Source of the DNA: Candidatus Altimarinota bacterium
GTDB taxonomy: Bacteria; Patescibacteriota; Gracilibacteria; BD1-5; UBA6164
NCBI GenBank assembly: GCA_028719245.1
Contig: JAQUKG010000001.1
Coordinates: 1 to 64,000, forward strand
Direction: 5' to 3'
Length of the DNA stretch: 64,000 bases
Position numbers and translations under genes: made by a program
Shown here: piece by piece, positions 10,727 to 59,146 of the stretch
Numbering within the stretch: position 1 is the first letter of the stretch
Layout: each line of letters opens with the position of its first letter
Notes under the pieces: model-generated
The model's input: the letters and a program-made list of their open reading frames with translations, nothing else
What the model was told of the DNA's origin: nothing
Database searches by the model: none

Positions 10727-10753
10727 TTGACTTTTTTATTAAAACTTTATAAT
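10727..10753 (+). promoter_or_regulatory. Promoter of the S-layer gene (TTGACT-N15-TATAAT)
   Basis: TTGACT at 10727-10732 and a perfect TATAAT at 10748-10753 are separated by 15 bases. Transcription would start near 10760, giving the S-layer mRNA a leader of roughly 380 bases. Confidence 0.7.
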
Positions 10754-10759
10754 CTGCTA

Positions 10760-11140
10760 GTATATATTAATGTTCTTTAAAATCATTCGAAAAATAAATA
10801 TAAAATTGGTTTTAGCTTGTTTTTGCAAAAGTATAAAGCAGGAAGAAAATATTCATCATCTCTATTATTTTCTAGAGAGCGAGAGAAAAATAATGATAAA
10901 TGTTTTCTTCCTGAGTTATGCATATGCAAACTTCAGGTTAAGGCTTTAACCTTTTAGAGGAATTCTCTAAAAAAGAGTTTATCTAATACTCTTAAAAATA
11001 TTAGGTCTACTATATTTATATAGTAATAATTGGCACCGAAGGAGGTTTTAGCCTTTTTCAAAAGTTTGAGTGTTAAATTTAGAAATTAATTTCTAATGTT
11101 CTAATATTCTAACTCTTTATTTTATAACTTATATTTATAT
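10760..11140 (+). ncRNA. Long structured 5' leader of the S-layer gene
   Basis: About 380 bases lie between the likely start of transcription and the S-layer ATG, with many hairpins. The largest is 10839-10913, whose outer arms CAGGAAGAAAA and TTTTCTTCCTG pair through a long imperfect stem. A 7-bp stem AGGTTAA/TTAACCT spans 10935-10952. TAGAG/CTCTA stems lie at about 10955-10969, AAGAGT/ACTCTT at about 10972-10992, and ACTATAT/ATATAGT near 11009. An 18-base palindrome is at 11079-11096. A GGCACCGAAGGAGG stretch sits near 11032. It may stabilise the mRNA or regulate its translation. I could not match it to tmRNA, RNase P, SRP RNA or a known riboswitch. Confidence 0.5.
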
Positions 11141-14100
11141 ATGAGTAATACTTTATTTAAAAAAGTTACTGCTGCTGCTGCTGCTTTATCTATTGTTTTA
11201 TCAATAGTTGTTCCAGTTGTATGAGTACAAGCTGCTGATGATTCAACTTCTGCTGCTAATAGATTAGCTGCTTTAGGTGTTATCGTTGACAATTCTAAAG
11301 ATCCTTCTAAATATAATTTAGGATCAAACATAACTAGAAGAGAAATGCTTAAAGTTATGATGAATTTATCTTCTGTTGAAGTTGGTGATACTTGTGAATG
11401 AAAATTTGCAGATTTACCAGCATCTGATTGGGGATGTAAATATGCTGAAGCTGCTTTAAAAGCTGGTTTCATTGCTGCTAATAAAAATTTCAGACCTAAT
11501 GATATGGTTACTGAAGCTGAAGCATTAAAAATGATAATGCAAGCTAGAGGTGTTGCTAAAACAGAAGGTATAACTGATTGGGCTCAAGCTTATGCTGATG
11601 CTGCAGTTAAAGCTGGTATTTTAGCTGAAGGAACTAAAGTTTCTACTAAAGCTGCTAAAAGATCAATGGTAGTTGTTACTGCTGATACAGCTGTTACTAC
11701 TACTACTTCTGCTGATACTACTGATACTACTTCTACTGAAGGAACAGATGATTTAAGTGGATTATTTGGAGATTTATTTGGTGATGAAACAGGAACTGAT
11801 ATGGGAACTGGAACTACTACTGATACTACTTCTACTGGAACTACTACTGATACTACTTCTACTGGAGTTACTGTTTCTGGTGGTGATGTTGAAGTTAGTT
11901 TAAATCCTGCTTCTACTGCTAATGGAACTCAAATACCAAATAATGGTACTATTAGATTTGCAATGGTTGACTTTACAGCTGGTAATACAGATGTATCAGT
12001 TAATACTGTTGATTTAAAATCAGTAGGTTTAGCTCAAGTTCCTACTTCAACTAGAGTATGGTTTGAAAAAAATGGTAAAAGATTATCTGGTAAAGCTGCT
12101 TTTTCTTCTGATAGAACAGCTGTAGTTTCTTTTGCTCCTGCTTTAGTTGTTAAAGCTGGTTCAAGTGAAACTTTAGATTTATATGTTGAATTAGCTACTG
12201 ATGCTTGAAACGATTTCCAATTTTCTGGAAAAATTGCTTCTAGTTCAGCTACTAATAATAACTGAGAATTTGTTACTAATGTTTTAAGAACTGCTACTTA
12301 TACAGTTGCTCCTGTTACTTTTGCTAAAGGAGGTGCTAATACTACTTACAACCAATCTAATGATATGGTTGAATTAGGTAGATTTACTCTTGAAAATAAA
12401 GATACTTCTTCTGAAACTAGAGATGTTAAATTTCAATCAATTACTTTAAGACAAAATGAAAGTGGTGATTTAGCTGATTTAACTGATTTACAAGTTGAAA
12501 GAAATGGTGTAAAAGTTTCTAGTGAAATGACTGTTTCTTGAAAAGATGTAACTTTTGTTTTAAATGACACAGTAAAAGACGGTTCTACTGCTACTTACTA
12601 TGTTAAAGCTAAAGTTGCTAATGTTCAAAATAATTCTGGTGATAAATATCAATTTTCTTTAAGAAATACTACTGATTTAAATGCTGTAGAAGTTCTTAAT
12701 GGATTTAGATCTACTGTTACTAGAGCTGATACTGACTTAAATATTTATACAGTTTTAGGTTCTGATGTTAAATTTGAAAGAAATTCTTCTGTAGAATTAT
12801 CTAAAAATTATGCAAAATGAACAAGTAATGTAATCTTATTACAAGGTACAATTACTACTAAATCTCCTATTACATTAGAAGATCCTACTTTAACTTTCAC
12901 TTCTTCTACTGGTGCTAATTTATTATTTGACACAATTTATTTACAAATTGGTTCATCTACAATGACTTGGACTGCTGGTACAGGAACTACTGCTTCATTT
13001 TTAGGTTTAGCTACTGTTAATAGTTCAGCTGATGTAAAAATGTATGGTAAATTAAGAGATTCTGCTCCTGCTGCTAATATTAAATTTGATGATTTAAGAT
13101 TATCATCATTTACAAAAGCTGAGTATGTTTCTAATCAAAATACTGTAACTTCTGCAGTTTGAACTATATCTGCTGTTCAAGTTTCAGTTGATTCTACAAC
13201 TTTAAGTGTTACTAGAGTTGATGGTCTTGGTAATACAAAAATGGCTGTTTGATCAAAAGCAGTTACTGTATATGGTGTAAATTTAGCTGTTACTCAAGGT
13301 AATGATGTTTCTATATCTAATGCTGAATATACTGTTACAGCTTCTGGTTCTTATACTAATAATGTATTTGCTACATTATATGTTGACTGAACTGCTGTTT
13401 CAACTAAAACTATTAATGCTTCTACTGTTAAATTTGATAATTTAACTAAACTTGTTGGAAAAACTCCTGTTAATTTAACTGTTAAAGTTGATTTATCAGA
13501 TGCTTATTCTAATGGAGATTTTGCTTTAAAATTAACTGCTTTAGATATAGTTGATACTTTAACTTCTCAAACAGTTTCTTTAGGTACAACTCCTAGCTCT
13601 GCTACATTTACTGTTGCTCAAGCTAAAGGTACTTTATCTAGCTCTGATAATAATCCAAAAAGATCATTATTACTTGCTGGTGATAAAAATCAAAAAGTTT
13701 TAGCTTTCAGAGTTAAAGCTGAAAATGATAATGTTAAATTAAGAGATTTATCTTTCTCTTGAGTTAATTTAGATAAAATGTCTAATTTTAGAATATTAAC
13801 TCCAACTAGTAAAGAAATAGCTGCTACAAGTAGTAATGCTTCAACTGTTTCATTTAGTAATATCACTCCAGAAGATGCAATCACTATGGATCATACTGAT
13901 ACTTACTATTTAATAGCTGATTTAAATACTAATGTAATTGCTACTAATGTAGTTGTTGAATTATTATATGCTTCATCTAATATTAAAGCTACTAACGGTT
14001 CTACAATTGCTATGGTTTGAGCTAATGTATTATCTAATACTCATTTAGTTGATGAAAATAAAGCTGTTATTGCAAAAGCTACTAATAGTTCTAAAGATAT

Positions 14101-14488
14101 AAGTACTTCTGCATTAAGATTTAGTGTAACTGCTTCTGGTAAAGATCAAGTTACTTTATCTGGTGCTACATTCTCTAATCAATTATCTGGTTATACAGGT
14201 TCTACTGTATTAGTAAAAGTTTATAAAGATACTGTATCTTCTGCAAACTTAGTTGGTTCAGTTTCTACTACTGCTAATTGAGGTGATGTTACAGTTCCAT
14301 TTACTGCTAATAATACTGTTGATGCTTCTTCAACTAATAACTATATAGTTGTTGTTGATTGAGTAACTATTGATGCTAATGCTAATACTCCTTCTTGGAC
14401 AATTAGAGCAAACACTATATATGTTGGTTCAATAGATGCTAGTCTATACAACAATATGGGTGAATTCCCTTTAACTGAAACTAAATAA
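11141..14488 (+). CDS. S-layer-like surface protein with SLH-like N-terminus
   Basis: The 1115-residue product has a signal peptide (about 1-28, ending VQA). Two SLH-like repeats follow (about 29-115 and 116-170), with ITRREMLKVM and a WAQAYADAAVKAGIL helix typical of these cell-wall anchoring modules. A Thr/Asp/Ser linker (about 185-245) contains a direct 27-base coding repeat (TTTDTTSTG units). The rest is a long beta-rich, Ala/Thr/Val-rich region, probably Ig-like domains. There is almost no Cys. Glycine is mostly GGT/GGA, with only about 13 TGA codons, unlike neighbouring genes. Its own promoter, a long leader and a strong terminator suggest a very abundant transcript. It probably forms the outer surface lattice. 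Confidence 0.85.
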
Positions 14489-14530
14489 TTTTAGATTAAG
14501 TTAAATTAAAAAATTATTAAATTAATTTTA

Positions 14531-14562
14531 AAATCCCTTCTCTTAAGAGAAGGGATTTTTTT
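14531..14562 (+). terminator. Strong terminator after the S-layer gene
   Basis: The stem AAATCCCTTCTC/GAGAAGGGATTT has a TTAA loop and is followed by a T-run. It is the most stable simple hairpin-terminator in this part of the window. Confidence 0.9.
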
Positions 14563-14676
14563 ATAATTTGTTTAGTTTAAACTATATTAAAAAGATTATA
14601 GCATTATTTTTTCTTAATAGACTTATTCCTTAATCTAATCATAGAAATATTTAAATGTTTAATTTTATACTTATTT

Positions 14677-15123
14677 TTAAGCTAAAGAACTTTGAAAGAA
14701 TTTGATAACTTTTTCTAAAAAAGCTTTTAAATGTCAATTATTTATTCAATTAATTTTCCTAAATCTTAAATAACTTATAGTTATAGTATTTGGAACCGGT
14801 TCGCTTTCTACTCAAGCACGATAATCAAATCTTCAAGGTTTAGATAAAAAATCATAATTTATGCCAATTTCGTAACCTTTTCATCAATACTCAAAGGAAA
14901 CACTAACTATTTTTCAATTTAAAATTTTAATGTTTCTAGATCTAAAAAATAATCTTCAAACAATATGAGAAACATAAGTAAATTCTTGTATTGTTGATAC
15001 TAAAGCACTTTCTACTCAAGCTTTCCATCTATTAACTCAACTAGAAACTGACATAGAAAATTGTGGTGATAAGAATAATCATGGAAGATCTAATTGTCAA
15101 GGTTGTGGTAACATTTGTCTCAT
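14677..15123 (-). CDS. Hypothetical protein, 148 aa
   Basis: I do not recognise this protein. It starts MRQMLPQPGQLDLP and has no signal peptide. The middle is rich in beta-strand-like stretches (GRLFFRSRNIKILNGKIVSVSFEYGGKGYEIGINYDF, about residues 57-93). A helical end FLEKVIKFFQSSLA follows. The repeated phrase AGVES occurs near residues 35 and 102, hinting at an internal duplication. It has its own promoter at 15153-15179 and diverges from lexA, so the two genes share a 157-base control region. It might be linked to the SOS response only by position. Confidence 0.7.
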
Positions 15124-15152
15124 AAAATAAAAAATCAAATTCTAATGTTTTT

Positions 15153-15179
15153 ATTTTACAATATTTTTTAATAAGTCAA
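15153..15179 (-). promoter_or_regulatory. Promoter of the 148-aa gene (TTGACT-N15-TAAAAT)
   Basis: On the minus strand TTGACT (15174-15179) is followed after exactly 15 bases by TAAAAT (15153-15158), about 30 bases before the ATG. Confidence 0.55.
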
Positions 15180-15221
15180 ATCTTCTACTTCAAAAACCTA
15201 TTTTTAAAAACAACTTATTTT

Positions 15222-15248
15222 TTGACTTTAAAAATATTTATATATAAT
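15222..15248 (+). promoter_or_regulatory. Promoter of lexA (TTGACT-N15-TATAAT)
   Basis: TTGACT (15222-15227) and TATAAT (15243-15248) are spaced by 15 bases. The start codon lies 33 bases further on. An AT-rich element, TTTAATATATAACT at 15259-15272, sits just downstream and could be an operator. Confidence 0.65.
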
Positions 15249-15280
15249 AACTATACATTTTAATATATAACTATTAATTT

Positions 15281-15922
15281 ATGCTTACAGATAAACAACA
15301 AAATGTTCTTGATATAATAACAGATTTTATTGGTAGATATGCTAAATCACCAACTATTGAAGAATTACAAACTTTAACTCATCAAAAATCAAAAAGATGA
15401 GTAGTTCAATATTTAGAAGCTTTAGAAAAAAGATGATTTATTACTAGATGAAGTGGTTTTAGAAGTATTAGACTTTGAAATTGAGTTTGATTTCAAACTA
15501 TGTTAAATATTCCAATTTTGTGAATAGCAAATGCTTGAAGACCTTTAGCTTTAGCTGATCAGTATGAATATTGAACTTTACCTATTTCAAAAACTTTAAT
15601 TCATTGAGAATGACAAGATTATTTTATAGTAAAAGTTGAATGAACTAGTATGAATGAATTTAGAGTAAATGACAAATATATAGAAAATTGAAGCTATGTT
15701 TTAATTGATAAAAGAGAAAAAGTTATAAATACAAATGATGCATTTTTGTTTGTAGTTGATAATGCAGCAACTTTAAAAATTCCAAAAAAAGAATGAAATA
15801 ATTTATATTTAATACCTAAATCTAGGGATAATTATCACAAACCAATTGTAGTATCTGAAGATGACAATGTTTTAGTTAATTGAAAAGTAGTTGATGTATT
15901 TAATTTTGAAAAAGTGTCGTAA
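15281..15922 (+). CDS. lexA: LexA SOS repressor / S24 autoprotease
   Basis: The 213-residue protein has an N-terminal winged helix with SPTIEELQTLTHQKSKRGVVQYLEALEKRGFI (about 23-54). The autocleavage site is NAGRPL at residues 84-89, cutting Ala85-Gly86, and that Gly is a TGA codon. The catalytic Ser123 lies in VEGTSMNEF and the catalytic Lys166 in AATLKIPK. LexA represses DNA-repair genes until RecA filaments trigger its self-cleavage. A recA gene at 43.8 kb completes the pair. The stop TAA is at 15920-15922, and an insertion element begins on the next base; the 4-base target duplication GTAA covers the stop codon, so the reading frame is intact. Confidence 0.95.
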
Positions 15923-15934
15923 GAGCCTGTCCCA

Positions 15935-15968
15935 AAAATACTAAATTGAATAGATTTAGTATTTTTTT
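15935..15968 (+). terminator. Terminator at the left end inside the IS
   Basis: AAAATACTAAAT pairs with ATTTAGTATTTT around a short loop and is followed by T residues. It now terminates lexA transcription and blocks read-in to the transposase. Confidence 0.8.
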
Positions 15969-16069: not shown

Positions 16070-17461
16070 ATGAGAAGACATGAAGCAATAATATTAAGTG
16101 AGATAATAGAAAAACTAAACTTAGAAAAATTACTAAAGCAGTATAATAAAAATCTAGTATGAAATGGAAGACCAGCATATAATCCAAAAATGCTTTTAAA
16201 AATATTATTTTACTGATATATGAATCAAACTTTTAGTAGTAGAAAATTAGCATCAAAGGTAAAATCAGATTTATGATTTATGTATTTAACATGAAATAAT
16301 AAACCAGACTTTAGAACCATAAACAGATTTAGAAAAGAAAAATGAAATATATTAGAAGATATATTTGTACAAATAGTTATGAAAGCAAAAAAACTATGAC
16401 TCATTCAATTTTGAACAGTAAGCTTAGACTGAACAAAAATATATGCAAATGCATCAAAAAATAAAAATTATGAGATAGCTTGATTAGATAAAAAAATTAA
16501 GTCATTTTTTGATGAAGCAGATGAAATAGATAAACTAGAAGATAAAGAATTTTGAGAAGAAAACGAAAATCATATTCCAGAAGAACTAAAAACCAAAGAA
16601 TGAAGAGATAAAAAGAGAAAAGAAATTGAAGAAAAAAGACAAAAAGCAGAAGAAAGAAAAGAAATCATAAAAAATGAAATAAATGAAAAACAAAAGGCTT
16701 GAATAAAACAAGAAAGAATAAATCTCACAGATAAAGATTCAAGATTAGTACTAATGAAGAGAAAAGATTGGTGAAATTGATATAATCCACAAATACTAAC
16801 AGAAAATCAAATTATTTTAACAACAACAGTTCCAAATTCAGCAGATGATAATAATGAATTAATACCATTATTAGAAAAGTTAAAAAATAAATTTACTATT
16901 TTTCCAAAAAATATATTAGCAGATAAATGATATTGAAATGAGGAGAATTATAAATATCTAGAAAAAGGTAATATATTATCATATATTCCACATCAAGAAA
17001 ATAGTGGAAAAAATCTAGATGAATATATATATGAAAAAAGTAATGATACTTATGAAGATAAAGACTGAAATATATTTAAGTTTAAACAATTTATGGGAAG
17101 ATTAGATTGAACTTGAAAAAAATGAAGACCAAGAAAAGAAAATATTAAAACATTAAAAGAAGAAGATTACAAAGCAAAACTATACATTACAAGACTAGAA
17201 AGCTGATGAAATAAATTTTTATATGTAGCAAAGAATTTAAAAGAGATTTACAGGAGAAATGATGAGAGATTATATAGTGAAGAATGAAAAAAAATATATA
17301 AGAAAAGATGAACTTGTGTAGAACCTGTTTTTGGTAATGTTAAATTTAACCTTTGATTTGAAAGGTTTTTATTAAGGTGATTTGAATGAGTTCAAATTGA
17401 GTGGAATTTGATAAGTTTAGCTCATAATCTAAAGAAAATCATCAAATTCAAAACTTCTTAG
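16070..17461 (+). CDS. IS1182-like DDE transposase, N-terminus frameshifted
   Basis: The main frame gives 463 residues from ATG 16070 (MRRHEAIILSEIIEK). It has a DUF772-like N-terminal domain, then DDE residues in VSLDGTKIYANA, ILADKGYGNEENY and CVEPVFGNVK. A highly charged Lys/Glu insertion (about residues 140-215) lies between the first two. The usual family start, FKEYNQEQAFLLPPSFREYLGED, is present upstream at 16008-16079 but in another frame; that frame ends at TAA 16089-16091. One missing base near 16079, or a -1 frameshift, would join GED to HEAIIL. The protein may therefore be made from the internal ATG, by frameshifting, or be inactive. Confidence 0.82.
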
Positions 17462-17550: not shown

Positions 17551-17561
17551 GGGACAGGCTC

Positions 17562-18123
17562 GTAAGGCTCTTTTTTTAATGTAATCTAAGATAAGACTAT
17601 GTCAATTTAATGTTTTGGTATATTTTGTATAAATATGATAAACTTAAGAAAAATTCATACTTAATTATATTATAGGAAATTTTAATAAATTATTTGTTTC
17701 TGAAATGGCTATAAACTTGGCTAGTTCTAATCACACGATATCTTGAGCTAAGGAGCTTTTTTCTTGATATGTTCAAACTATTTTAGAATAAGATAAAAGT
17801 AAAAAAACTTTGTAAAAGAAGATTTTGAATTAAATGTTTTGGTATATTTTAGAGGAATATGATAAAATAAGGAAAGTTTATTTATTATAGGATGCTTTGT
17901 TTATAGTAATCATTAGTATTTTTTATACTCAAAGTGTCCAGTTTTATTTTAGAATTTTTATCTCTTTTTTTTGCAAAAATAAGAAAAAAACTATAATTAA
18001 AAAGATTTTTAGGTATTTAAAAAGAAAAAGATGAAAAATTGGTTATAAAATTTATAGTTAATTTTTTGTCTTAATCTTTTGTTTATCTTTAAAAATCAAT
18101 TTTATATTTTAATTTATATTTTT
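17562..18123. other. 562-base gap before pnp with an imperfect direct repeat
   Basis: I find no gene here. Two similar blocks, 17604-17677 and 17828-17892, share AATTWAATGTTTTGGTATATTTT, then AATATGATAAA, then TTATTATAGGA. Between them is a short GC-richer piece around 17715-17760 with a small AGCT/AGCT hairpin before T residues. The blocks could be duplicated promoters or the ends of small RNA genes. The rest, 17893-18123, is AT-rich and presumably carries the pnp promoter, though no clear -35/-10 pair stands out. Confidence 0.4.
17604..17892 (+). repeat. Pair of imperfect direct repeats upstream of pnp
   Basis: Blocks 17604-17677 and 17828-17892 match over most of their length. The clearest shared cores are ATGTTTTGGTATATTTT and AATATGATAAA. 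They lie between the IS and pnp and do not match the IS ends. Confidence 0.55.
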
Positions 18124-20331: not shown

Positions 20332-20424
20332 TGTATAAAAAATTTTGACTTATATTAACTATTATATAAAATCAGTCAGTCTATTTTTTAAAATAGTTTG
20401 TTATTTAATTATTAAAAGTTTTAT

Positions 20425-23269: not shown

Positions 23270-23296
23270 ATTATAACTAAAAATCATTTTACTCAA
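23270..23296 (-). promoter_or_regulatory. Promoter of the PH-domain gene (TTGAGT-N15-TATAAT)
   Basis: On the minus strand TTGAGT (23291-23296) and TATAAT (23270-23275) are separated by 15 bases, 29 bases before the ATG. Confidence 0.6.
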
Positions 23297-23358
23297 ATCT
23301 TTTTGCTAAAAATACAAAAAAACATATTATTTTTCAAAATATTAACTAATTGTAAAAT

Positions 23359-28607: not shown

Positions 28608-28917
28608 AAATGTTTAATAAAATTTAAAAATATTTAACAAGTTTATAATAATAATTTATCATTTAAAAACAAGTCAATTAAAAAAAATATTAATTGTAAA
28701 AAAAATGTTAATTTCTTTTAATCTCTATTTTAAAGGTATTAAAAGAATAACTTTAAAAGAATTATTTATTTTTATAACTTTTTTAATATAATTTAGCTAT
28801 TAAAGTTATTAACATTTTTAATTATTACTACTACTATATAATATATTATATATAAAAATTTGTAATTAATAAAAATATATAGTAAAATGTTAATAACTTT
28901 AATTTATAAAAAAGTAT
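28608..28917. other. 310-base intergenic region with a 20-bp inverted repeat
   Basis: No gene is visible. The promoter of ctpA should lie at its left end on the minus strand (TTGACT and TTGTTT boxes near 28660-28680 followed by TATTAT repeats). At the right end is the long inverted repeat described separately. Short echoes of its core, AAAATGTTAAT near 28704, occur further left. Confidence 0.5.
28799..28903. repeat. Perfect 20-bp inverted repeat before a five-gene unit
   Basis: ATTAAAGTTATTAACATTTT at 28799-28818 is the exact complement of AAAATGTTAATAACTTTAAT at 28884-28903. The 65-base spacer is nearly pure A/T with its own short palindromes. The right arm ends 14 bases before the ATG at 28918, so it could be a paired operator, an RNA cruciform or stem, or a replication-like element. 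Confidence 0.75.
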
Positions 28918-29229
28918 ATGATATTAAATATATTTAAAAAATATTCAGAAAAGTCTAAGAGAAAAAAAATTATTATTACAATAATTCAAAATTTAAATAT
29001 AAATGAAAAACAAAAAAATTTATATTTAGATAGTTTAGAATTTCTTGATGAAATAGGGTTAGATAAACTTTATAAATCTTTAGAAAGTTTTATGTGAGAA
29101 ATAGAAAGACAACAAATGGAAGATATAAGCCGTGAAAGTTTTACAAAAATAGCTTGAATGAGAAAAAAAGAAGTTCAAGAAAAACAAAAAGAAATAAACA
29201 GTTTTTGATTTTTATTAAATAATTTATAA
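28918..29229 (+). CDS. Small helical hypothetical protein, 103 aa
   Basis: I do not recognise it. The protein is predicted wholly helical and highly charged: MILNIFKKYSEKSKRKKII, then a segment KNLYLDSLEFLDEIGLDKLYKSLESFMGEIERQQ, then GMRKKEVQEKQKEINSFGFLL. No signal or membrane segment is evident. It opens a five-gene unit (28918-33593) directly behind the 20-bp inverted repeat. It could be a regulator or adaptor for the membrane proteins that follow. Confidence 0.65.
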
Positions 29230-34198: not shown

Positions 34199-34225
34199 TT
34201 GCTTTTGGTTTATTTTTTTTATAAT
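34199..34225 (+). promoter_or_regulatory. Promoter of the aminopeptidase gene (TTGCTT-N15-TATAAT)
   Basis: TTGCTT (34199-34204) and TATAAT (34220-34225) are 15 bases apart. The leader is about 60 bases. Confidence 0.55.
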
Positions 34226-36599: not shown

Positions 36600-36626
36600 T
36601 TGATTTTCTTTGAAATTTTATATAAT
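36600..36626 (+). promoter_or_regulatory. Promoter of gltX (TTGATT-N15-TATAAT)
   Basis: TTGATT (36600-36605) and TATAAT (36621-36626) are 15 bases apart, 42 bases before the ATG. Confidence 0.65.
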
Positions 36627-36668: not shown

Positions 36669-38276
36669 ATGTTAGCAAATTTATTATTTCCAGAAATTAA
36701 AGAAACTCCACAAGATATTATTAATAAATATCCAAAAAGGCCTGATTGAAAGGTTATCACAAGAATTGCTCCATCTCCGACTTGATTTTTACATATTTGA
36801 GCAATTTACTCAGCAATGCTTGATAAAATTGTAGCATATAAAAATAATTGATTATTTTTTTTGAGAATAGAGGATACAGACCAAAAAAGAGAAGTTGAAT
36901 GAATGGCAAAAAAGTATATTGAATTATTGAAAATATTTTGACTTAATTTTAATGAATGACCAATTTGATTAAATTGAGAAGATATTTGAAATTATTGACC
37001 ATATACACAATCAAAAAGAGAATATATTTATAAAACTTTTTTAAAAGATTTAGTTTTAAAATGACTTGCTTATCCTTGTTTTTTAACTGAGGAAGAAATA
37101 ACTCAAACAAGAGAAATACAAGAAGCTTCTAAATTACCAACTTGAATTTATAAAGAATATTCTCCTTGGAGATATGCAAGTTTAGAAGATGTAAAAAAAG
37201 CATTAGATGAAAAAAAAGAGTTTGTTATTCGTTTAAAATCTAGTTGAGAATTAATAAAAAAAATTGAAATAAATGATTTAATAAAATGAAAAGTTTCTAT
37301 GCAAGAAAACTTTTTAGATGTAGTTTTAATGAAAACAAATTGAATTCCAACTTATCATTTTGCTCATTTAATAGATGATTATCTTATGGGGACAACACTT
37401 GTAATTAGATGAGATGAATGGTTTGCATCAGTTCCACTACATTTAGAATTGTTTAAAATGATGTTATGGAAAGCTCCGAATTATGCTCATTATTGACCTT
37501 TAGTAAAAATTGATTGAGATTCTAGAAGAAAAATTTCAAAAAGATTAGATCCAGAAGCAGATATAGAATATTATTTTGAAAAATGATTTTTAATAGAAGC
37601 AATTTTAGATTTTTTATCAAATATTATAAATTCATGATTTGAAGATTGGAGAAAAGAAAATTTAAACAAGTCTTATTTAGAATTTGATTTTAAATTAGAA
37701 AAAATAAATTCTGCTTGAGCTTTAGTTGATTTAGAAAAATTAACTTTTGTAAATGCAACACTTATAAAAAATATGCCTTTGGAAGAACTTTATGAAAAAT
37801 TATCTAAATATTTACAAGAATATGAAAACGATTTTTATAATAATAAATTTTTAAAAGTTTCAAAAGAATATAATTTAAAAATTATTACAGAATTAAAAAC
37901 AAGACTTACGATATTTAAAGAATATAAAAAATTGACTACTTTTTTTTATAATGATTTTGATGTAAATCAAGATATAATTGATTTACTTATAAATTTAAAA
38001 ATGAAAATAGAAAATATTGACATTGTAAAAAAATGATTATACTTAGCACTAGATATTTTAAGTGCTAAAAAAGATGAATTTTTAAATATTGAAGAAATTA
38101 AAAATATTTTTGTTGAAGAAATTAAAAAAGTTGAAATGAAAAATTGACAAGTTTTGTGGCCTGTTAGGGTTTCATTGTCTTGAGAAGAATTTTCACCTTG
38201 AGCTTTAGAATTAATTTACATACTTTGAAAACAAAAGTCAATACAAAGAATACAAAATATTTTGAATTTAATATAA
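36669..38276 (+). CDS. gltX: Glutamyl-tRNA synthetase
   Basis: The 535-residue class I synthetase charges tRNA-Glu. The HIGH motif region is RIAPSPTGFLHIGAI (about residues 33-47), IEDTDQKREVEGMAKKY follows, and the KMSKS-type loop is SRRKISKRLDPE. The C-terminal anticodon-binding part is helical and ends LNLI. No GatCAB genes are in the window, so whether it also mischarges tRNA-Gln cannot be told. A possible leading extension (MLANLLFPEIKETPQDIINKY) precedes the catalytic fold and is typical of some Patescibacteria. Confidence 0.96.
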
Positions 38277-38329
38277 AAATGTTATAGAATTAAAACATAT
38301 AAAAATATTATATTCTAACCTATATAAAT

Positions 38330-38728
38330 ATGAATTATCAAATGTTGAAAACTTTACTTGATTCTCTTGTATCAAATTTTAAATGTCCAAATTGTTCTAA
38401 TACAGTTAATGATTCTTTAATTGAAATAGTTTGAGCTGCTTGAAGTAGTGTAAATTTAGATATTTTTTGTTCTAATTGTGAAAAACATACTTTTGTTAAA
38501 GCGGAAGTTTCTCAAATAAATTTATGAAATTTAATGAATTTTAAATGAGAAAATATAAATGAAATCAAACAAAAATTACAAGAAAAATTATCTTGATTAA
38601 ATATTAAAAAAGCAGATTTTTCTAATACAAAAAATATTGAAGCAAAAATAAATGATAAACAAATTTTAGAATTAAGAGAAACTTTAAAAAATGAAAATGT
38701 TAATGTTAAGGATTTTCTAAGTGAATAA
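38330..38728 (+). CDS. Zinc-ribbon hypothetical protein, 132 aa
   Basis: Two Cys pairs are visible, CPNC (about residues 19-22) and CSNC (about 46-49), in a typical zinc-ribbon spacing. A Lys/Glu/Asn-rich helical tail follows (about 70-132). The helix LQEKLSGLNIKKADFSN carries no active-site residues that I recognise. It may bind a nucleic acid or protein partner. It lies between gltX and typA with no overlap. Confidence 0.65.
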
Positions 38729-38804
38729 AATATTTTTATGTTTATGAAGGTTTTTATATTTAAATTTTACTTTTTTAGTTTTATTTCTATAATGTTGCCG
38801 AGAT

Positions 38805-40687: not shown

Positions 40688-40714
40688 TTGTATTTTCTAA
40701 AAAAAACATATAAT
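40688..40714 (+). promoter_or_regulatory. Promoter of nusA (TTGTAT-N15-TATAAT)
   Basis: TTGTAT (40688-40693) and TATAAT (40709-40714) are 15 bases apart. Transcription would start about 40721, directly before the hairpin at 40723. Confidence 0.6.
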
Positions 40715-43705: not shown

Positions 43706-43732
43706 TTGACATATATTTTAAATATATATACT
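43706..43732 (+). promoter_or_regulatory. Promoter of recA (TTGACA-N15-TATACT)
   Basis: A perfect TTGACA (43706-43711) and TATACT (43727-43732) are 15 bases apart. The element TTTAAATATATACT at 43732-43745 directly after the -10 repeats part of the spacer and is a candidate LexA operator. Confidence 0.65.
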
Positions 43733-44818: not shown

Positions 44819-44845
44819 TTGTGTTTTTAAAAAATTCTCTATAAT
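44819..44845 (+). promoter_or_regulatory. Candidate promoter of rpmG (TTGTGT-N15-TATAAT)
   Basis: TTGTGT (44819-44824) and TATAAT (44840-44845) are 15 bases apart. A second TATAAT occurs near 44894 without a good -35. Confidence 0.45.
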
Positions 44846-47262: not shown

Positions 47263-47289
47263 ATTATATGTAAAATGTTTTTAATGCAA
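47263..47289 (-). promoter_or_regulatory. Promoter of glyA (TTGCAT-N15-TATAAT)
   Basis: On the minus strand TTGCAT (47284-47289) and TATAAT (47263-47268) are 15 bases apart. The -35 is fused to the T-run of the terminator just upstream. Confidence 0.65.
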
Positions 47290-51519: not shown

Positions 51520-51546
51520 CTTATCACAATTTTTGAATTAATGCAA
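51520..51546 (-). promoter_or_regulatory. Candidate promoter of the large-protein pair (TTGCAT-N15-GATAAG)
   Basis: On the minus strand TTGCAT (51541-51546) is followed after 15 bases by GATAAG (51520-51525). The -10 is weak. The -35 adjoins the T-run of the hicA terminator, as at glyA. Confidence 0.4.
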
Positions 51547-51572: not shown

Positions 51573-51623
51573 ACCAATATTTTACTTTAAATTAAATTAT
51601 ATTTTTCAATTAGCTATTTAAAA

Positions 51624-52143: not shown

Positions 52144-52170
52144 ATTATATAAATTTTTTATAAAAATCAA
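52144..52170 (-). promoter_or_regulatory. Promoter of hicBA (TTGATT-N15-TATAAT)
   Basis: On the minus strand TTGATT (52165-52170) and TATAAT (52144-52149) are 15 bases apart, 30 bases before the hicB ATG. Confidence 0.65.
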
Positions 52171-52285: not shown

Positions 52286-54559
52286 TTATAAATCTCATTT
52301 TTCAATCATACAAATAGCTGTTTTTATGTCAAAATAACTAATATTTTCATCACAAAAATCTTTTATAGGTTTTAATTTTTCTAAACTTAAAGAATTATTT
52401 TTTATAGTTTCTTTAATTTTTTTTAATTTTTCTAAAGAAGAAAATTTTAAAATTTCGCTTAAAGTAAGTTTATTTAAACTATAAAGTTTAACTATATGTT
52501 CTTCAATTGTTTGAATTGTCATTTCTCTTTTTATAGCAATTTCTTGCAAAGAAATTTTTTCTTGTAATAAAGATAAAGTTTGAGTATAAGTATCTATTTT
52601 TTCTATTTTAATTTTTTGTAAAGATGAAGAATTTTTCATCTTTACTGATTTCTTTAAATTTTTTACTTTAAAATACAAACTTGATTGTAAATCTTTTTCT
52701 TCGTCAAAAAGTATTGAATTATTATAAATACTAGCAATTCAGCTTTGAGTTATTCATATTTTTGGATATTGTCAGGCAGATTTATACAAAAATCAATTTT
52801 GGGTTAATGTATCAAAAATAGCCAAAACAAGATTTTTATCATAAATTTGTAAAATTGCAAAATCTTTATCTAAGTCTAAATTCCATTCTAGTATTTTTTT
52901 ATCCTTTTCTCAAACTAATATAGAAGCTAAAATTTGACTTCAAAATTTATTATCAAATCTTTTAATAAATTCTAAAACAAGCAAAAATACATTTTTTGGA
53001 ATTACTTCTTTTTCTCAATTCAAATCATATTTTTTCTTATCAATACAATAATCACAAACTCCACAATTTTCTCACATATTTTTTAAATCTTCTTCATCAC
53101 CGAAATATTCTAAAATAAATCTTTTTCTACATCCTGGTTTAAAAAGTAATTTTTTAACTTGTTCTAATTTAAAATATGATTCTTCTTTAAGCAAATTTTG
53201 ATGATTCCATAAAATTGGCAGTTTATCCAAATCTATTTTTGGCAAAATAAGTGTAATTCATCTTCACCTAAAATCTGTTTCTCAAGCTTTTACATCAAAT
53301 CATCTTTTTAAAACTGAATATTTTTCAAATATCTTTATAATACTTCAAACCTTCATATCACTTCAAATTCCAGATTCAATTGCAACAGAATTATATGTTT
53401 TTAATATTTGATGATTAGTTCATTCTCAAATTTTAAAATCTTTATATAAATAACTATACAAAGTCAAAATATCAGTTTTTGGAGGATAAGTATTTTCAAT
53501 AAAAAATTCTTGAATAATTGTGTCTTGATAACTAGCCAAAATCACTCAATAACTATTTTTTCAATCTCTTCAAGCTCTACCGACTTCTTGATAATAATTT
53601 TCAATACTTCAAGGTAAATTGTAATGAATTACAAATCTTATATTTTTTTTATCAATTCACATACCAAAAGCATTTGTAGCAACAATCACATCATAAGTTG
53701 AATTCATAAAATTATTTTGTTCTTGTTCTCTTAAATCAGGTTTCATTTCTCCCGTATAAATTCAAACTTTTACTCAGTTTTCAAGTAAATATTGATAAAC
53801 TTTTGAAACTGCTTTTACACTTGAACAATAAATTATTCAATATGGAGGAGTTTTTTTGATTATTTCTAAAACTTTTTCTAACTTTTCAGCTTCTTTTGAG
53901 ATTTCTCTAACTATAAAAGCAAGATTTTCTCTATTAAATCCTGAGGTCCATATTTTATAATCTTTTAATCAAAGTCTTTCAATTATATCAGTTCTTACTT
54001 TTTTTGTAGCAGTTGCTGTTAGTGCAACTATTGGAAAAGTTTTTATATTTCTTAAATTTTCAATAAAATCTCTAATTTTTAAATAACTTGGTCTAAAATC
54101 ATGTCACCATTGACTAATACAATGAGCCTCATCAATAGCAATTAATGCAATATTTACATTTTGCATAGTATTTAAAAATAATTCATCATTTAATCTTTCT
54201 GGTGCAATATAAAGAAACTTTACACTTCAATTTTGATTTGAATCATTTAAACTAATTTCATCAAGTAATAAATTCTTTTGTGCAGTTGATATAGTAGAAT
54301 TTATAACTTCTGCTCTAAATCAAAGTTCATTTAATTTATCAACCTGATCTTTCATAAGAGAAATTAAAGGAGAAATAATTAGGACAAGTCAATCTAAAAC
54401 ACTTCAAGCAAATTGATAAACAAGTGATTTTCAACCTCAAGTTGGCATAAAAACAAGAGTGTCATTTTTATCAATTACACTCTTTATAATTTCAAGTTGT
54501 CATTCCCTAAAATTATCTAGTTTAAATTTAGTTTTTAATATTTCTTCAAAATTTTGCAT
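52286..54559 (-). CDS. recQ: RecQ-family ATP-dependent DNA helicase
   Basis: The 757-residue helicase unwinds DNA in recombination and repair. Motifs in order: FREGQLEIIKSVI (motif 0), FMPTGGGKSLVYQ (Walker A), IAIDEAHCISQWGHDFRP (motif II plus aromatic-rich loop), ALTATATKKVR (motif III), and YYQEVGRAGRDGK (motif VI). A zinc site uses CRKR..., CGVCDYC. A winged helix follows. The C-terminal HTH domain around TYTQTLSLLQEKISLQEIAIKREMTIQTIEEHIVKL is the module often attached to Bacteroidetes and CPR RecQ. It diverges from the paralogue pair. Confidence 0.95.
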
Positions 54560-54579
54560 ATATTTTTTTAATATTTTAA

Positions 54580-54606
54580 AGTATATTAAAAAATGTATAT
54601 TTACAA
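54580..54606 (-). promoter_or_regulatory. Promoter of recQ (TTGTAA-N15-TATACT)
   Basis: On the minus strand TTGTAA (54601-54606) and TATACT (54580-54585) are 15 bases apart, 20 bases before the ATG. Confidence 0.6.
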
Positions 54607-54689
54607 AATCAAAAATTAACTTTACAAAATATTTTATCTTAGTAAATTCTATAAAATTTTCTTCAATTTAAAATATTAAATAATATTAT

Positions 54690-55808
54690 ATGAATTCACC
54701 CACTAACTCCATAAATTCACCGAATTTATCACAAAATAAAATACAATCTGCTGAACAAATAATAAATTTTGCTACAAATGAAATCCGAAAACTAAAAAGA
54801 TTTATATGATCTGATTGATTGGCTATAATTGAAGAACATAGAGAAGTCTTAATAAAATGATTGCAGTTATTTGTAAGGAATTTTAATGATAATCAAACTC
54901 TTGACTGATTTTCTAAAGTAGAAAAAGATTATCTAATGAAACCAGAAGATTGAAAAACATATTCTCAAGAAGAAAAAAGAACTATAGAAACATTACTTTT
55001 TTATAGATTTGCTTTAAAACATATATTTAAAATCAAAGAAAAAGCTAGAAAAGTTGTTGATTTTGAAAGAATAAGAGGATTGATTTGAGATAATCATCAT
55101 TTAATTCCAGACTTACAACCTGCTAGTCATTATATTGAAGCTATAAGAGAAACAATAAATTTATTAAGAAGTAAATATTCTTGAATTACAAAATTACCAG
55201 AATGAATTACTACTATCATAGTTCCAAATTTATATGCTAGACCAGACTTTATTTCTAAAATACTAAGTTTTTATATTTTATGACAAAAAACAGTGGGAGA
55301 ATTGCTGGAAGAATGAAAAATAAATATAGTTTTTAGTTGAAATATTGTAAGTATTAGAACAGATTACGAACTTGAATGAAAATATTTTGAATTAGATAGT
55401 AATTGATTTTACTTAATTGATGAAGAAACTTGATTGCCTATACTTAGTGAATATTGAGTATTTTTAGATCAAGTAAAAAAAGTAAGGGGATTAAAAAGCT
55501 TAAAAGATACTGAAAACTTTATTAAAAACAATTATGAAGAGTATTCAAGTAAACTAGAAGAAATAATAAGAAATTGGGTTAAGAAAGATTTAGAAAGAAA
55601 TTTATATACTTTATCAGTTTTAATGGTGTTATCTAAAGACTATGAAAATATATTTTTATTAGAAAACCCTAACCAAAATCAAGATAAAGATGATTGAAAT
55701 CATAATGTTCAAAAAATAATTTTACTTAAACCAAAAGAATGAAGTAATTTAGAATTTGTTGAAGAAGAACATGATTTAAAAGTAGATTTAACAGATAATT
55801 TATTTTAA
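54690..55808 (+). CDS. Hypothetical protein, 372 aa; paralogue of the next gene
   Basis: I do not recognise it. The N-terminus is low-complexity (MNSPTNSINSPNLSQNK). Helices follow, then a core at about residues 170-275 with LPEGITTIIVPNLYARPDF, VGELLEEGKINIVFSGN and IDEETGLPILSEYG. This core recurs in the downstream gene, so the two arose by duplication. The end is Asp/Glu-rich. No signal or membrane segment is seen. Codon 33 is CGA, one of three CGA/CGG codons in the window, within NEI-x-KLKRF, where Arg fits a basic helix. Confidence 0.68.
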
Positions 55809-55829
55809 AAAATATATAATATTAAAATT

Positions 55830-57320
55830 ATGAATATTGAGCCTATTTTACATATCAAAGAACCAACTTGCTGAATTACTAGTTTAAATTCATTTCAATT
55901 AGGAGATAGTGAGGAAACTAATCAGCTAAGAATGGCTGAAAAATTGAGAGTTAAAATTGCATCAAAAAGATTAGAAATACAAATAAATGATTTATTTAAT
56001 GTTTTATTTGAAGAAAATAAAACAACTCTTAAAACTGAATTTCAAGAGTTTGTAGAAAATTATACTAAAGATTCTCCTATAGCTCTTGAATGAATTACTA
56101 GTTTAGAATATTATTATCTTACAGAATTAAAACAAAATACTAGAATTTTAAATCAAGAAGAAGAAAAATTAAAGCAAGACATTTATAATTTATTATTTTT
56201 AAGATTTTCATATATTACCTTACTAAAAAGAAAAATTGACAAAAACATACAAGAACCTAAACAATATGAAATTCCTGAAGTAGAGCCTGAGTCATATAGA
56301 ACAAAATTTAGAAGAAAAAAAAATGATATGGCAAAAAAGCTACCCAATCCAAGAATGTTAGAGTGAGATGAAGGTTATATATGGTTTTTAAGAAAATCTT
56401 TTGAAAAATTTAGAAGATTAGAAAGGTTAAAATCTAGAAGATATAATTCAAAAATTATAGAATTACCTGAATGACTTGATACTATAAGTGTTAATATTAG
56501 TAGTTTTGAATCTATTTTTAATGTACTTAATTTTAAGCTATGAGATAAAACAATCTTAGAATTACTTGAAGAAGGAAAAATAAATTTAGTATTTAATTTA
56601 GTTTGAGTTTATAGAAGAACTAGCTGACTTTTAAGTAAATTTGAAGTTGATGAATATTGAGATATTGTTTTTGATGAAGAAACTTGAGATCCTATATTAA
56701 GTGAATATTGAGAATTACTACAAAGAATTATATCAAAATCCAATTGACTCTTGAAGGGGCTAGAAATAGAAGATATTGAAAAATATTTATCAGAAAATAA
56801 TAAAGAATTTTCAGAAGAATTATATGAATTAAAAAAGCTAAAGAAACAACAAATATTGGTATATCTTCAAACTTTAGAATTTTTATTAAGACTCAGTTAT
56901 AATCATAATTTATTTATATGTAGGTGAAAAAATGATTTTATAGAAGAAATTAAGAAAATAAAATTAAAAGGTATTTCACAAACTTTGGATTTAATTTTAA
57001 AAAAAGTCTTTTGAAATATGGCTGTTCAGTTTTATGCAACTTCATTTTCTTCAATTATACATGATACTATTAGTCAATTTGGTGCAGATAGTTCTGGAGT
57101 TATCTTTTTAAGTTCGTTAATAGATAATTATAGAGATTTACCAGAAAGTTTATGAATAAATCCTATAAATACAGCTATTGTAGTTCCGGATGATTCTAAT
57201 ACAAAAAAACAAACTTTAGAATCTAGAGTTCAAAAAGTAGATATTTGTAGTATGGTTGTTTATTCAAAATGAAAAATACAAGTTTATGATTTAAAAGAAA
57301 CAAAAAAAGCTATTAATTAG
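55830..57320 (+). CDS. Hypothetical protein, 496 aa; paralogue of the preceding gene
   Basis: The function is unknown. The core at about residues 210-305 (LPEGLDTISVNISSFESIF, ILELLEEGKINLVFNLVG, FDEETGDPILSEYG) aligns with the preceding protein. Around it are a helical N-terminal half with a basic cluster (YRTKFRRKKNDMAKKLP, about 152-168) and a C-terminal extension. The latter ends in a mixed strand-helix segment: SSGVIFLSSLID, then NTAIVVPDDSN and VYSKGKIQVYDL. It starts 21 bases after its paralogue and ends at TAG inside a terminator hairpin. Confidence 0.68.
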
Positions 57321-57330
57321 CTTTTTTTGT
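57302..57330 (+). terminator. Terminator overlapping the end of the 496-aa gene
   Basis: AAAAAAAGCTA pairs with TAGCTTTTTTT. The stop codon TAG lies within the stem, so the coding end doubles as a terminator. Confidence 0.85.
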
Positions 57331-57366
57331 TTGAATAATTTTGAAACTTAGATATTATTTTTAGTT

Positions 57367-58074
57367 TTAAACTAAATTTAACTTTTTAAATAATTCATCT
57401 TTCTCAGTTTTTGAGAGTTCTTTATACTCTCATTCTTTTAAATTTCAAAGTTCAATATTTTCTATTCTAATTCTTTTTAAGTTTTTGACTTCATTTCAAA
57501 CTTTCTGGACCATTCTTCTAATTTGTCTATTTTTTCACTGCGAAATTGTAATATAAAATTTGTATGGAGAAATTCTTTCAATATCTGCTTGTTTTGTTTT
57601 ACTTCAAAGGATAATAAGTCAATTTCTCATTTTTTCTAAAGCTCAGTCCATGATAATTTCAAAAGTTTCTACAATATATTGTTTTTCATGATTATATCTT
57701 GGATGCATCAAAAAATTTGCAAGCCTTCAATCATTTGTCATTAAAATGAGTCAAGTTGTATCTTTATCAAGTCTTCAAATTGGAAAAACTCTTTGATCTA
57801 TATTTATAACATCTAAAATGGTTTTTTCTCATATATTAGCACAAGTTGTTACAACTCACCTTGGTTTATTTACTTTAAAATATAAAAGTTCTTTTTGTTC
57901 TTTTATAGCTTTATCCAACATTTCAACTTTATCAATATTTGAATCTATAGTTTGTCCAATTTTAGCAATTTTTCAGTTTACTTTAATTAAACCTAAAGAA
58001 ATGTATTCTTCAGCTTTTCTACGAGAACAAAATCAAGCTTGAGATAAGTATTTATGAATTCTTAGTTTTTCCAT
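57367..58074 (-). CDS. Pseudouridine synthase, RsuA/RluB family
   Basis: The 235-residue enzyme isomerises a uridine in rRNA. An S4-like RNA-binding N-terminus (EKLRIHKYLSQAGFCSRRKAEEYISLGLIKVNGK) is followed by the catalytic domain. Its signature is FPIGRLDKDTTGLIL, with the nucleophilic Asp near residue 107. GKNRQIRRMVQKVGNEVKNLKRI is the family's C-terminal motif. Whether it acts on 16S or 23S rRNA cannot be told. Its ATG is preceded by a GC-rich palindrome that contains the only clear Shine-Dalgarno-like GGGGAGG in the window. It is probably cotranscribed with nrnA. Confidence 0.93.
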
Positions 58075-58084
58075 AATTATTATT

Positions 58085-58121
58085 CCTCCCCTTTTTAATA
58101 AGGGGGAGGTTAGGTGGGGGT
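58085..58121 (-). repeat. GC-rich REP-like palindrome before the pseudouridine synthase
   Basis: CCTCCCC pairs with GGGGAGG around TTTTTAATAAG, and TTAGGTGGGGG follows on the plus strand. The base composition is far above the surrounding sequence. On the minus strand one arm supplies GGGGAGG about 11 bases before the ATG at 58074, so the stem would hide it. It also resembles extragenic repeat units known from other bacteria. Confidence 0.65.
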
Positions 58122-59092
58122 TAAATTTTTAAATTAAATGATTTTATTTCTTCTAATTGAGCTTTTGTAGTAAATCAAGATGCTTTCTTATGTCATCATC
58201 AATCAAATCTTTTGGCAATTTGTGTTAAATCTATATCATCTCTTAAAGTTCTAAGAGATGCTTTTATATATTCTCATTTTTGAGTTAATAAACTACAATA
58301 TTTAATATTTTCAGCTGTATTTAAATAATCTATTACTCAAGAAATATCATCATAATCTGAAGAATAACTGTCTAACATTGATTTATTTACATAAGAGTAT
58401 AAAACTCAATTTTCATCTATAAAACTATCAGATAATATTTTTCACCAAAGTTTTATTGTAGACAATTTATTATTTTTAAAAAATCTGTCCACAATTAATT
58501 TATAATCAGCTCATAATTCAAATAATTCAGAAGCAATTAAATAAGTTATATTATCCACATTTGAATGTTTAAATCATCCTGTATCTGTATAAATTCAAGC
58601 AAGAATATTTGTTGCTGAAATAGAAGATATTTGGATATTTAAAAGATAAAATATTTCAAAAACTATCATTGTAGTTGATGAATATTTTACATTTAAAATA
58701 TTTTGTTTTGCATATAATTCGTTTGTAATATGATGATCTATTGAAATTGTATTATAAGTTTTTCAATCAAAAAGTTCTGGATAAATCTGGTCAAATCAAG
58801 TTTGACTTTTACTTCAACTATCAAAAAATATAATTAAATCGTAATCTTTTGGATTAAAGCTTTTTTTATATTTTTCAGTATTTTTTAAAAATTTGTATTT
58901 TTCTGGAATATCATCAATGCAAATTAAATCAATATTTTTTCATGCAAGATTATCCTGAATAATTTCATAAAATGAGGTTGCAGATCAGATGGTGTCTAAG
59001 TCAGGATTTTTATGGCTAATTAAAGCTATATTTTCTCATAAAGTAATTTTATCAATTATTTTTCAATAAACTCTTAATTTTTTGTCTAACAT
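58121..59092 (-). CDS. nrnA: DHH phosphoesterase, NrnA-like (oligoRNase/pAp phosphatase)
   Basis: The 323-residue DHH/DHHA1 enzyme degrades very short RNAs and dephosphorylates pAp. SHKNPDLDTIGSATSF carries the first metal ligands, FFDSG the second, SIDHHITNE the DHH motif, and IYTDTGGFKHSN the fourth acidic site. The DHHA1 C-terminus has RFDGGGHKKASGF, the substrate-binding GGGH motif. With PNPase it would complete RNA turnover to mononucleotides. It is followed on the same strand by the pseudouridine synthase. Confidence 0.92.
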
Positions 59093-59119
59093 TTAATTTA
59101 GATTATTTTGTAAGGGTTT

Positions 59120-59146
59120 ATAATAATTATTTTTTTATATATTCAA
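59120..59146 (-). promoter_or_regulatory. Promoter of nrnA (TTGAAT-N15-TATTAT)
   Basis: On the minus strand TTGAAT (59141-59146) and TATTAT (59120-59125) are 15 bases apart, 27 bases before the ATG. Confidence 0.55.

Follow-up and report, generated by a model that had tools for sequence, protein, structure and literature searches.

Predicted primary-sigma promoters with spacers of 15 to 16 bp in an order of recoded Gracilibacteria

Promoters read by the primary sigma factor are usually assumed, in all bacteria, to have a spacer of 17 ± 1 bp between their −35 and −10 boxes, and shorter spacers are associated with alternative sigma factors such as sigma-28 (about 15 bp) and sigma-B (13 to 15 bp). 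A survey of transcription start sites in nine species of five phyla reported 17 bp as the most frequent spacer and suggested that it is conserved across phylogeny; the word Patescibacteria is absent from its main text (PMC8407463). For E. coli, 17 bp is reported as the commonest spacer, promoters with spacers of 15 to 19 bp being well expressed and 16 bp matching 17 bp in a synthetic library (PMC8695583). Among the papers listed by our searches of the open-licence literature we found no promoter-spacing study for Gracilibacteria, Absconditabacteria or Patescibacteria. Here we describe predicted promoters with the usual boxes and a spacer of 15 to 16 bp in a 64,000-nucleotide stretch of Candidatus Altimarinota DNA (hereafter the window: contig JAQUKG010000001.1, positions 1 to 64,000, assembly GCA_028719245.1), in other DNA of the same genome and in its relatives. 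A first-pass annotation of the window had noted TTGnnn, exactly 15 bases, and TATAAT or a one-base variant of it before many unrelated genes, and had proposed that the sigma factor or polymerase of this lineage prefers a shorter spacer.

The source organism is a recoded small-genome bacterium, AT-rich at 23% GC (22.6% for its own genome). Its open reading frames (ORFs) reach a normal length only if TGA is taken as a residue and not as a stop, and the coding fraction is 0.04 under genetic code 11 and 0.91 under code 25. The named loci with the best matches to its sigma factor are mostly Ca. Gracilibacteria, in which TGA is known to encode glycine (PMC8629427). Judged from these comparisons the organism is a TGA=Gly member of Ca. 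Gracilibacteria, glycine as the residue being taken from the known code of the group. The assembly is 90.7% complete and gave no match to 16S rRNA. For an independent sample we drew 20 stretches (378,920 bases, window excluded) from further contigs of this genome; the sampled DNA amounts to about one third of the genome. Genes were called as the longest nonoverlapping ORFs under code 25, and gaps of at least 40 bases between them were sorted by reading direction into 172 segments that lead to a gene start and 140 that do not.

On both strands of the intergenic DNA of the window, exact TTG..TATAAT pairs occurred nine times at a spacing of 15 and at most three times at any other spacing from 8 to 25; with one mismatch allowed, the histogram for the whole window had no clear peak. 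The independent stretches upstream of genes gave 33 exact pairs at 15, 8 at 16, 5 at 17 and 3 at 18, with 0 to 4 at each remaining spacing from 6 to 27, whereas dinucleotide shuffles gave about 1 to 2 per spacing and 1.2 at 15 (Poisson P of about 1e-35 for the excess at 15). The count against shuffled sequence proposed in the first-pass annotation thus recovered its peak at 15 in the genome of origin. The opposite strand, which leads to no gene start, had only 2 exact pairs at 15. When one −10 mismatch was allowed in the independent stretches, 58 pairs were found at 15 and 54 at 16, compared with about 19 expected.

We then fitted an expectation-maximization (EM) model, in which both box matrices and the spacer (10 to 23) were left free, to 203 upstream segments, window included, scanning 250 nucleotides (nt) upstream of each ORF. 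The −10 consensus was TATAAT and the −35 consensus TTGA.T (TTG frequencies of 0.97, 0.97 and 0.86), with C, T or A and then T or A after TTGA, as in sigma-70 promoters. EM spacer counts were 75 at 15, 62 at 16 and 16 at 17; the confidently called sites (n = 142) comprised 69 at 15, 60 at 16, 13 at 17 and none at 18, with a mean spacer of 15.61 (95% confidence interval, 15.50 to 15.72). The predicted promoters have the TATAAT box (also found in the relatives) and the TTGACA-like −35 box of sigma-70 promoters and are missing one of their defining features, the spacer mode of 17 (17 ± 1 bp). A spacing of exactly 15 had thus been drawn too tightly, since the range became 15 to 16 once degenerate boxes were included. 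Called sites in the window leaned to 15 (13 versus 5 at 16), whereas those elsewhere were about equally divided; the earlier reader had thus seen mainly perfect-TATAAT promoters. Run on the strand facing away from gene starts, EM drifted to other motifs without a shared spacing (own genome, 43 sites at 11 and 24 at 19; Bacilli/Clostridia, 37 at 11; Gracilibacteria loci, 27 at 12; Saccharibacteria, 12 at 15 with a TTTTc-like box from 43 segments).

The boxes and the spacer were coupled. In the own genome, 43 of 68 sites at 15 had exact TATAAT, compared with 13 of 60 at 16 (P = 2.6e-6), and 7 of 14 sites at 17 had the extended −10 TG, compared with 3 of 128 at 15 to 16 (P = 1.8e-6). Three genus mates, pooled, gave 26 of 42 versus 25 of 82 for TATAAT (P = 0.001) and 10 of 16 versus 6 of 124 for TG (P = 8.6e-8). 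The TATAAT trend ran in the same direction, without significance, in the family (10 of 17 versus 26 of 78, P = 0.059) and in the order (11 of 25 versus 12 of 56, P = 0.06). We infer that 16 bp would lie nearest the optimum and need the least help, a spacer of 15 being offset by a perfect −10 box and one of 17 by TG. A short spacer produced by misplacement of the −10 box is unlikely, because the TG sites support the register of that box. In the own genome and its genus mates the start codon lay most often 27 to 31 nt beyond the −10 box, as expected for promoters with short leaders; these distances were more widely scattered in the family and the order. Upstream of tRNA genes, 7 of 11 regions had a fair box pair with a best spacing of 15 or 16 (own genome, 16 and 16; G002, 16, 16 and 15, one of these pairs tying with 14; G001, 15; G003, 16), and 4 of 11 had none.

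In the relatives, the predicted spacers form a cline, in which the family and the order are mostly at 16, other members of the same class at 16 or 17, and Saccharibacteria, the Patescibacteria family f38 and AT-rich Bacilli/Clostridia at 17. Some L-numbered loci in this comparison are G-numbered genomes (for example, L083 = G008 and L092 = G041), and they were not pooled in the spacing counts. EM gave 26 sites at 15 and 58 at 16 for genus mate G002; 18 at 15, 19 at 16 and 13 at 17 for genus mate G001; 26 at 15 and 89 at 16 for the family (three genomes); and 31 at 15, 59 at 16 and 3 at 17 for the order (four genomes). Exact TTG..TATAAT pairs at 15 and 16 numbered 15 and 17 in G002, 6 and 1 in G001, 2 and 2 in genus mate G003, and 9 and 21 in the family. 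The first-pass annotation had proposed the same count for relatives; short spacing was indeed found in the sampled order, with its peak at 16 and not at 15. The ratio of 15 to 16 in the own genome differed from those in G002 (P = 0.0014) and the family (P = 8e-8).

Elsewhere in the class, the two f13 genomes gave 23 sites at 16 and 4 at 17 (G088) and 9 at 16 and 19 at 17 (G096, third seed drifted); f20 gave 15 at 16 and 31 at 17, f9 24 and 22, and f22 5 and 38. EM for f8 depended on the seed, with a mode of 17, but near matches in this sample numbered 6 at 16 and 2 at 17; f10 gave 17 sites at 17 from two seeds while the third drifted; and f7 was weak (8 to 9 at 17, 5 to 7 at 16). Saccharibacteria had 30 of 53 segments at 17, f38 had 22 sites at 17 in two of three seeds, two other Patescibacteria (G125 and G167) had a spacer of 17, and Bacilli/Clostridia had 63 sites at 17 and 18 at 18. 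An untrained pass with TTGACA and TATAAT matrices and a flat spacer prior gave 15 for the own genome, 16 for the family, 16 over 15 for the order (f2/f3), 16 over 17 for f13, equal 16 and 17 for f20, and 17 for f22, Saccharibacteria and f38. Called sites at 15 or 16 outnumbered those at 17 by 428 to 32 in the own order, versus 4 to 86 in Saccharibacteria, f38 and f22 together (P of about 1e-67), and in the two genome surveys no sample outside the order had more than three EM sites at 15 (four in one drifted run). Ten loci of mixed taxa (50% GC) showed no clear spacing peak. E. coli DNA (50 kb, 22 upstream segments) yielded no stable motif by de novo EM and was excluded as a control.

Genes were matched between genomes by best one-way blastp hit (at least 40% identity and 60% coverage), with no gene matched to more than six relatives. 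A promoter was called with confidence in both members of 43 pairs, which are not independent, since several relatives can match one gene and at least three pairs come from one genome under two names. In the order own-relative, 17 pairs were 15-15, 11 were 15-16, 1 was 15-17, 11 were 16-16, 1 was 16-15 and 2 were 17-17, so that in 42 of 43 both members were at 15 to 16 or both at 17. Matched promoters kept their boxes while the spacer sequence had diverged. The rpoD promoter had a spacer of 15 in the own genome and in the five rows of relatives listed (four genomes, G008 being L083), and the ribosomal protein gene at L022:6000 (L10 by inspection) had 15 in two genomes of the order with 40 and 48% protein identity.

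In our view the box pairs are likely to be ordinary promoters of the primary sigma factor (sigma-70 group 1), their −35/−10 distance having been shortened within this TGA=Gly order of Gracilibacteria, with a holoenzyme tuned to about 16 bp. What can be read from the DNA itself comprises the boxes, the 15 to 16 peak, the cline, the coupling of boxes and spacer and the short spacing at the matching genes of relatives. The housekeeping holoenzyme would read the usual TTGA.. and TATAAT boxes at a preferred distance of about 16 and not 17 bp; 15 would be well tolerated, mostly with a perfect −10 box, and 17 would be rare and often accompanied by an extended −10 TG. As in the sigma-70 (RpoD/SigA) systems of other phyla, those of E. 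coli and B. subtilis among them, we find the boxes, the TG subset, the strand and position before genes, and a single primary sigma factor with regions 1.1 to 4; unlike the promoters of those systems, with their mode of 17, these have a mode of 15 to 16. Saccharibacteria and other Patescibacteria belong to the same phylum and share the boxes, but their spacer is 17 where resolved (Saccharibacteria, f38, G125 and G167). Sigma-28 and sigma-B indicate that a holoenzyme can work at about 15 bp, but these are group 3 factors with different boxes, whereas the boxes here are of group 1. With somewhat less assurance, though we still lean towards it, we propose that the reach of sigma-70 was re-tuned stepwise in one clade, passing from 17 through 16/17 and 16 to 15/16, solely by point substitutions, with no change in length of sigma or the beta flap and with promoters following genome-wide.

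Several observations weigh against a holoenzyme tuned to about 16 bp. The own genome has no single sharp optimum, since called sites outside the window were split between 15 and 16 (56 versus 55). EM was unstable for G003, with 9 sites at 14, 9 at 15 and 5 at 16 from 29 segments, and exact TTG..TATAAT pairs in the order (f2/f3) numbered 12 at 15 and 8 at 16. In a first survey, the mode could not be interpreted in 7 of 23 genome samples (G037, a member of the order, and G076, G107, G114, G132, G187 and G207); with more DNA, EM gave 17 for G107 and G076, direct counts in G076 leaning to 16 (6 versus 2). The polymerase comparisons also returned nothing unusual in length. Regions 2.4 to 4.2 of the sigma factor aligned without gaps to the SigA chains of solved structures and to nine other sigma factors of the order; the stretch that we take to be the beta flap had no insertion or deletion (indel) in the 24 of 26 genomes aligned (f13 genomes G088 and G096 left out); and three RpoC N termini read by eye had no indels and nothing odd. 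These comparisons accordingly demonstrate no structural cause, and a length change at the sigma region 4 and beta-flap contacts, which the first-pass annotation had suggested inspecting, was not found in the stretches compared.

The sigma factor itself has regions 1.1, 1.2, 2, 3 and 4 above the Pfam curated cutoffs and is the only full sigma-70 in the assembly, which has one region 3 match and two region 4 matches, the second without region 2 or 3. It fell below the NCBIfam RpoD equivalog cutoffs, narrowly for TIGR02393 (348.7 versus 354) and more widely for NF006666 (459 versus 572). Its recognition helices, including that of region 4.2, are nearly unchanged. The cause of the short spacing would lie in holoenzyme geometry, that is, in the relative position of sigma-2 and sigma-4, altered by substitutions and not by insertions or deletions; our favoured guess is that substitutions displace sigma-2, sigma-3 or sigma-4 over a distance of roughly one base pair. 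WIRQGVTR in region 2.4 occurs in 10 of 10 sigma factors of the order, compared with WIRQAITR in 19 others outside f13 and WIKQSITK in the two f13 sigmas; the change presumably falls at position 438 in E. coli numbering. It is one candidate substitution, confounded with phylogeny, as is the order-specific EAKTL in region 4. In the beta-flap stretch, GDKSKDVKDSSL was common to 10 of 10 rows of the order and occurred in no other row. The f13 sigmas are divergent in regions 2.4 to 3 (WIKQSITKAIADM and VRIPVHLIDEI), and their one-residue deletion before region 4.2 was rejected as a cause, the f13 spacing being 16 to 17. The proposal that the sigma factor or polymerase prefers a shorter spacer thus held as a preference, both in the third of the genome that we sampled and in the sampled members of the order, at 15 to 16 here and at 16 in relatives, while its attribution to sigma or polymerase is our inference.

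The strongest competing explanation, which we nevertheless regard as unlikely, is drift in cis alone, in which the polymerase still prefers 17 and tolerates 15 to 16, and spacers have become shorter genome-wide through deletion bias or relaxed selection. The breadth of E. coli RNA polymerase, reported as highly active at 15 to 19 bp with 16 equal to 17 in a synthetic library (PMC8695583), tells against a re-tuned holoenzyme and means that promoters could have drifted in this way, and the absence of indels from the compared sigma and flap stretches fits as well. Such drift would, however, leave many spacers of 17 and 18, whereas the own genome has no called site at 18 and 14 of 142 at 17, half of them with TG; the short spacing is repeated at the matching genes of relatives; and Saccharibacteria and f38, which are also small Patescibacteria genomes, stay at 17.

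The shape or topology of the DNA is a less probable cause, by which AT-rich A-tract DNA or a relaxed chromosome would give the same angle between the boxes with fewer base pairs. The spacers of the own genome are 86 to 91% AT, and A or T runs of at least 4 occur in 67 to 88% of sites. Of four genomes of the own genus, three had weakly scoring GyrA C-terminal repeats; the f13 genomes G088 and G096 each had a single repeat match, compared with 4 to 6 in the other 26 genomes; loss of gyrase was rejected for the own genome, in which GyrA is present. AT-richness alone is not the cause, because eleven loci of Bacilli/Clostridia with 23 to 31% GC were at 17 (55 at 17, 11.5 at 18, 0.8 at 16 and 0.3 at 15) and members of the order with 41 to 42% GC were at 16 (G036 and G045; G037 gave no usable motif), whereas Saccharibacteria with 43% GC peaked at 17. 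Furthermore, G002, at 21.6% GC, favours 16 more than the own genome does at 22.6%.

It is very improbable that the TTGA box is read by a second factor in place of sigma region 4, such as a global activator or the sigma-4/HARE protein described next, in which case the distance would be no sigma spacing at all. A protein with a sigma region 4 domain fused to a HARE-HTH (RNA polymerase delta-like) domain is encoded (L003:11912-12976, + strand) and is possibly a beta-flap-binding factor. It is widespread in Patescibacteria, full-length in 21 of 26 genomes and 59 to 79% identical in 8 of 9 other genomes of the order. We rejected it as the cause of the spacing, since it is found in 17-bp and 16-bp genomes alike, and neither G020 of the order (16 bp) nor G175 (17 bp) has a full-length match; in addition, the −35 consensus is sigma-70-like and the 4.2 recognition helix nearly unchanged. 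Chance and selection by the reader in AT-rich DNA, where exact TATAAT and TTG are common at 23% GC and the one-mismatch window histogram has no clear peak, are refuted by the strand-specific 33 pairs, against 1.2 expected, in DNA new to that reader, and we give them practically no credence.

If an order within the Candidate Phyla Radiation does use 15 to 16 bp, promoter annotation of these mostly uncultured genomes would have to be redone with a free spacer, and native promoters for genetic tools would be picked accordingly. Relatives at 15/16, 16 and 17 would form a natural series for the residues that set the sigma-2/sigma-4 distance. Were the stepwise re-tuning true, the evolution of a supposedly fixed molecular ruler would be directly testable by sigma swaps between close relatives.

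The box pairs of the window are listed in Table 1. Gene names are those of the earlier reader or come from inspection of translations, and family-library searches were made for the sigma factor and the sigma-4/HARE protein only. The S-layer site, beyond the 250-nt scan, and rpmG, with an ORF under the size limit of the gene caller, were checked by reading only. All 13 sites that the first-pass annotation had put forward as firm read directly as TTGnnn, 15 bases and a TATAAT-like box, 9 of them with exact TATAAT and 4 with a one-base variant (TAAAAT at 15153, TATACT for recA and recQ, and TATTAT for nrnA), and its spacer of 16 for nadK agreed with ours. A fourteenth, weaker site before the large-protein pair (51520-51546) is weak indeed, ending in GATAAG with two mismatches, and EM passed it over for another weak site at 51596-51622 (posterior 0.38). 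The spacer of 14 claimed for fusA is best read as 16. No clear box had been seen for mutL, typA, pnp and murB; mutL has a weak candidate only, but the other three have boxes.

Table 1. Predicted −35/−10 box pairs in the window (N, spacer bases; EM values are posteriors)
Boxes and spacer	Gene	Coordinates	Strand	Basis and matches
TTGTAT-N17-TATAAT	941-aa ORF at 3504	3448..3476	+	EM 0.76
TTTATT-N15-TATAAT (weak)	mutL	10662..10688	-	EM 0.52
TTGACT-N15-TATAAT	S-layer (SLH) ORF	10727..10753	+	direct reading; 388 nt upstream of ORF start
TTGACT-N15-TAAAAT	153-aa ORF (148-aa gene of the first-pass annotation)	15153..15179	-	direct reading; EM 0.98
TTGACT-N15-TATAAT	lexA	15222..15248	+	direct reading; EM 0.99
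TTGCAA-N15-TATAAT	pnp	17971..17997	+	EM 0.88; G002 match TTGCAA-N16-TATAAT
TTGACT-N16-TAAAAT	fusA	20345..20372	+	EM 0.97; G020 match at 16
TTGAGT-N15-TATAAT	PH-domain gene	23270..23296	-	direct reading; EM 0.95
TTGCTA-N16-TATTAT	nadK	23303..23330	+	EM 0.78
TTTATT-N16-TATAAT (weak)	103-aa ORF at 28918	28765..28792	+	EM 0.53
TTGCTT-N15-TATAAT	pepA	34199..34225	+	direct reading; EM 0.96
TTGATT-N15-TATAAT	gltX	36600..36626	+	direct reading; EM 0.98
TTGAAT-N17-TAGAAT	132-aa ORF at 38330	38262..38290	+	EM 0.60
TTTACT-N16-TATAAT	typA	38766..38793	+	EM 0.85; G010 match TTTACT-N16-TACAAT
TTGTAT-N15-TATAAT	nusA	40688..40714	+	direct reading; EM 0.96
TTGACA-N15-TATACT	recA	43706..43732	+	direct reading; EM 0.98; G008 and L070 matches at 16
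TTGTGT-N15-TATAAT	rpmG	44819..44845	+	direct reading
TTGCAT-N15-TATAAT	glyA	47263..47289	-	direct reading; EM 0.99; G001 match at 15, G020 at 16
TTGATT-N15-TATAAT	hicB	52144..52170	-	direct reading; EM 0.99
TTGTAA-N15-TATACT	recQ	54580..54606	-	direct reading; EM 0.59
TTGAAT-N15-TATTAT	nrnA	59120..59146	-	direct reading; EM 0.90
TTGATA-N16-TATAAT	murB	60154..60181	-	EM 0.80
TTGATT-N15-TAAAAT	353-aa ORF at 60518	60464..60490	+	EM 0.62

Downstream of lexA, window positions 16070-17461 hold a 463-aa ORF whose translation, on inspection, resembles an insertion sequence transposase. The leaders of 24 to 36 nt between the −10 box and the start codon showed no visible Shine-Dalgarno sequence in the own genome or its genus mates. 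Among 78 leaders, the best match to AGGAGG covered 2 of its 6 bases in 64, 3 in 13 and 4 in 1. The leaders were almost free of G, which made up 0 to 5% of the bases at any one of 21 positions in those of the own genome (n = 78) and up to 10% in those of the genus mates (n = 67). Given short leaders of a narrow length range, the start codon may be chosen without Shine-Dalgarno pairing. The base directly before the start codon was T in 74% of leaders in the own genome and in 70% of those in the genus mates.

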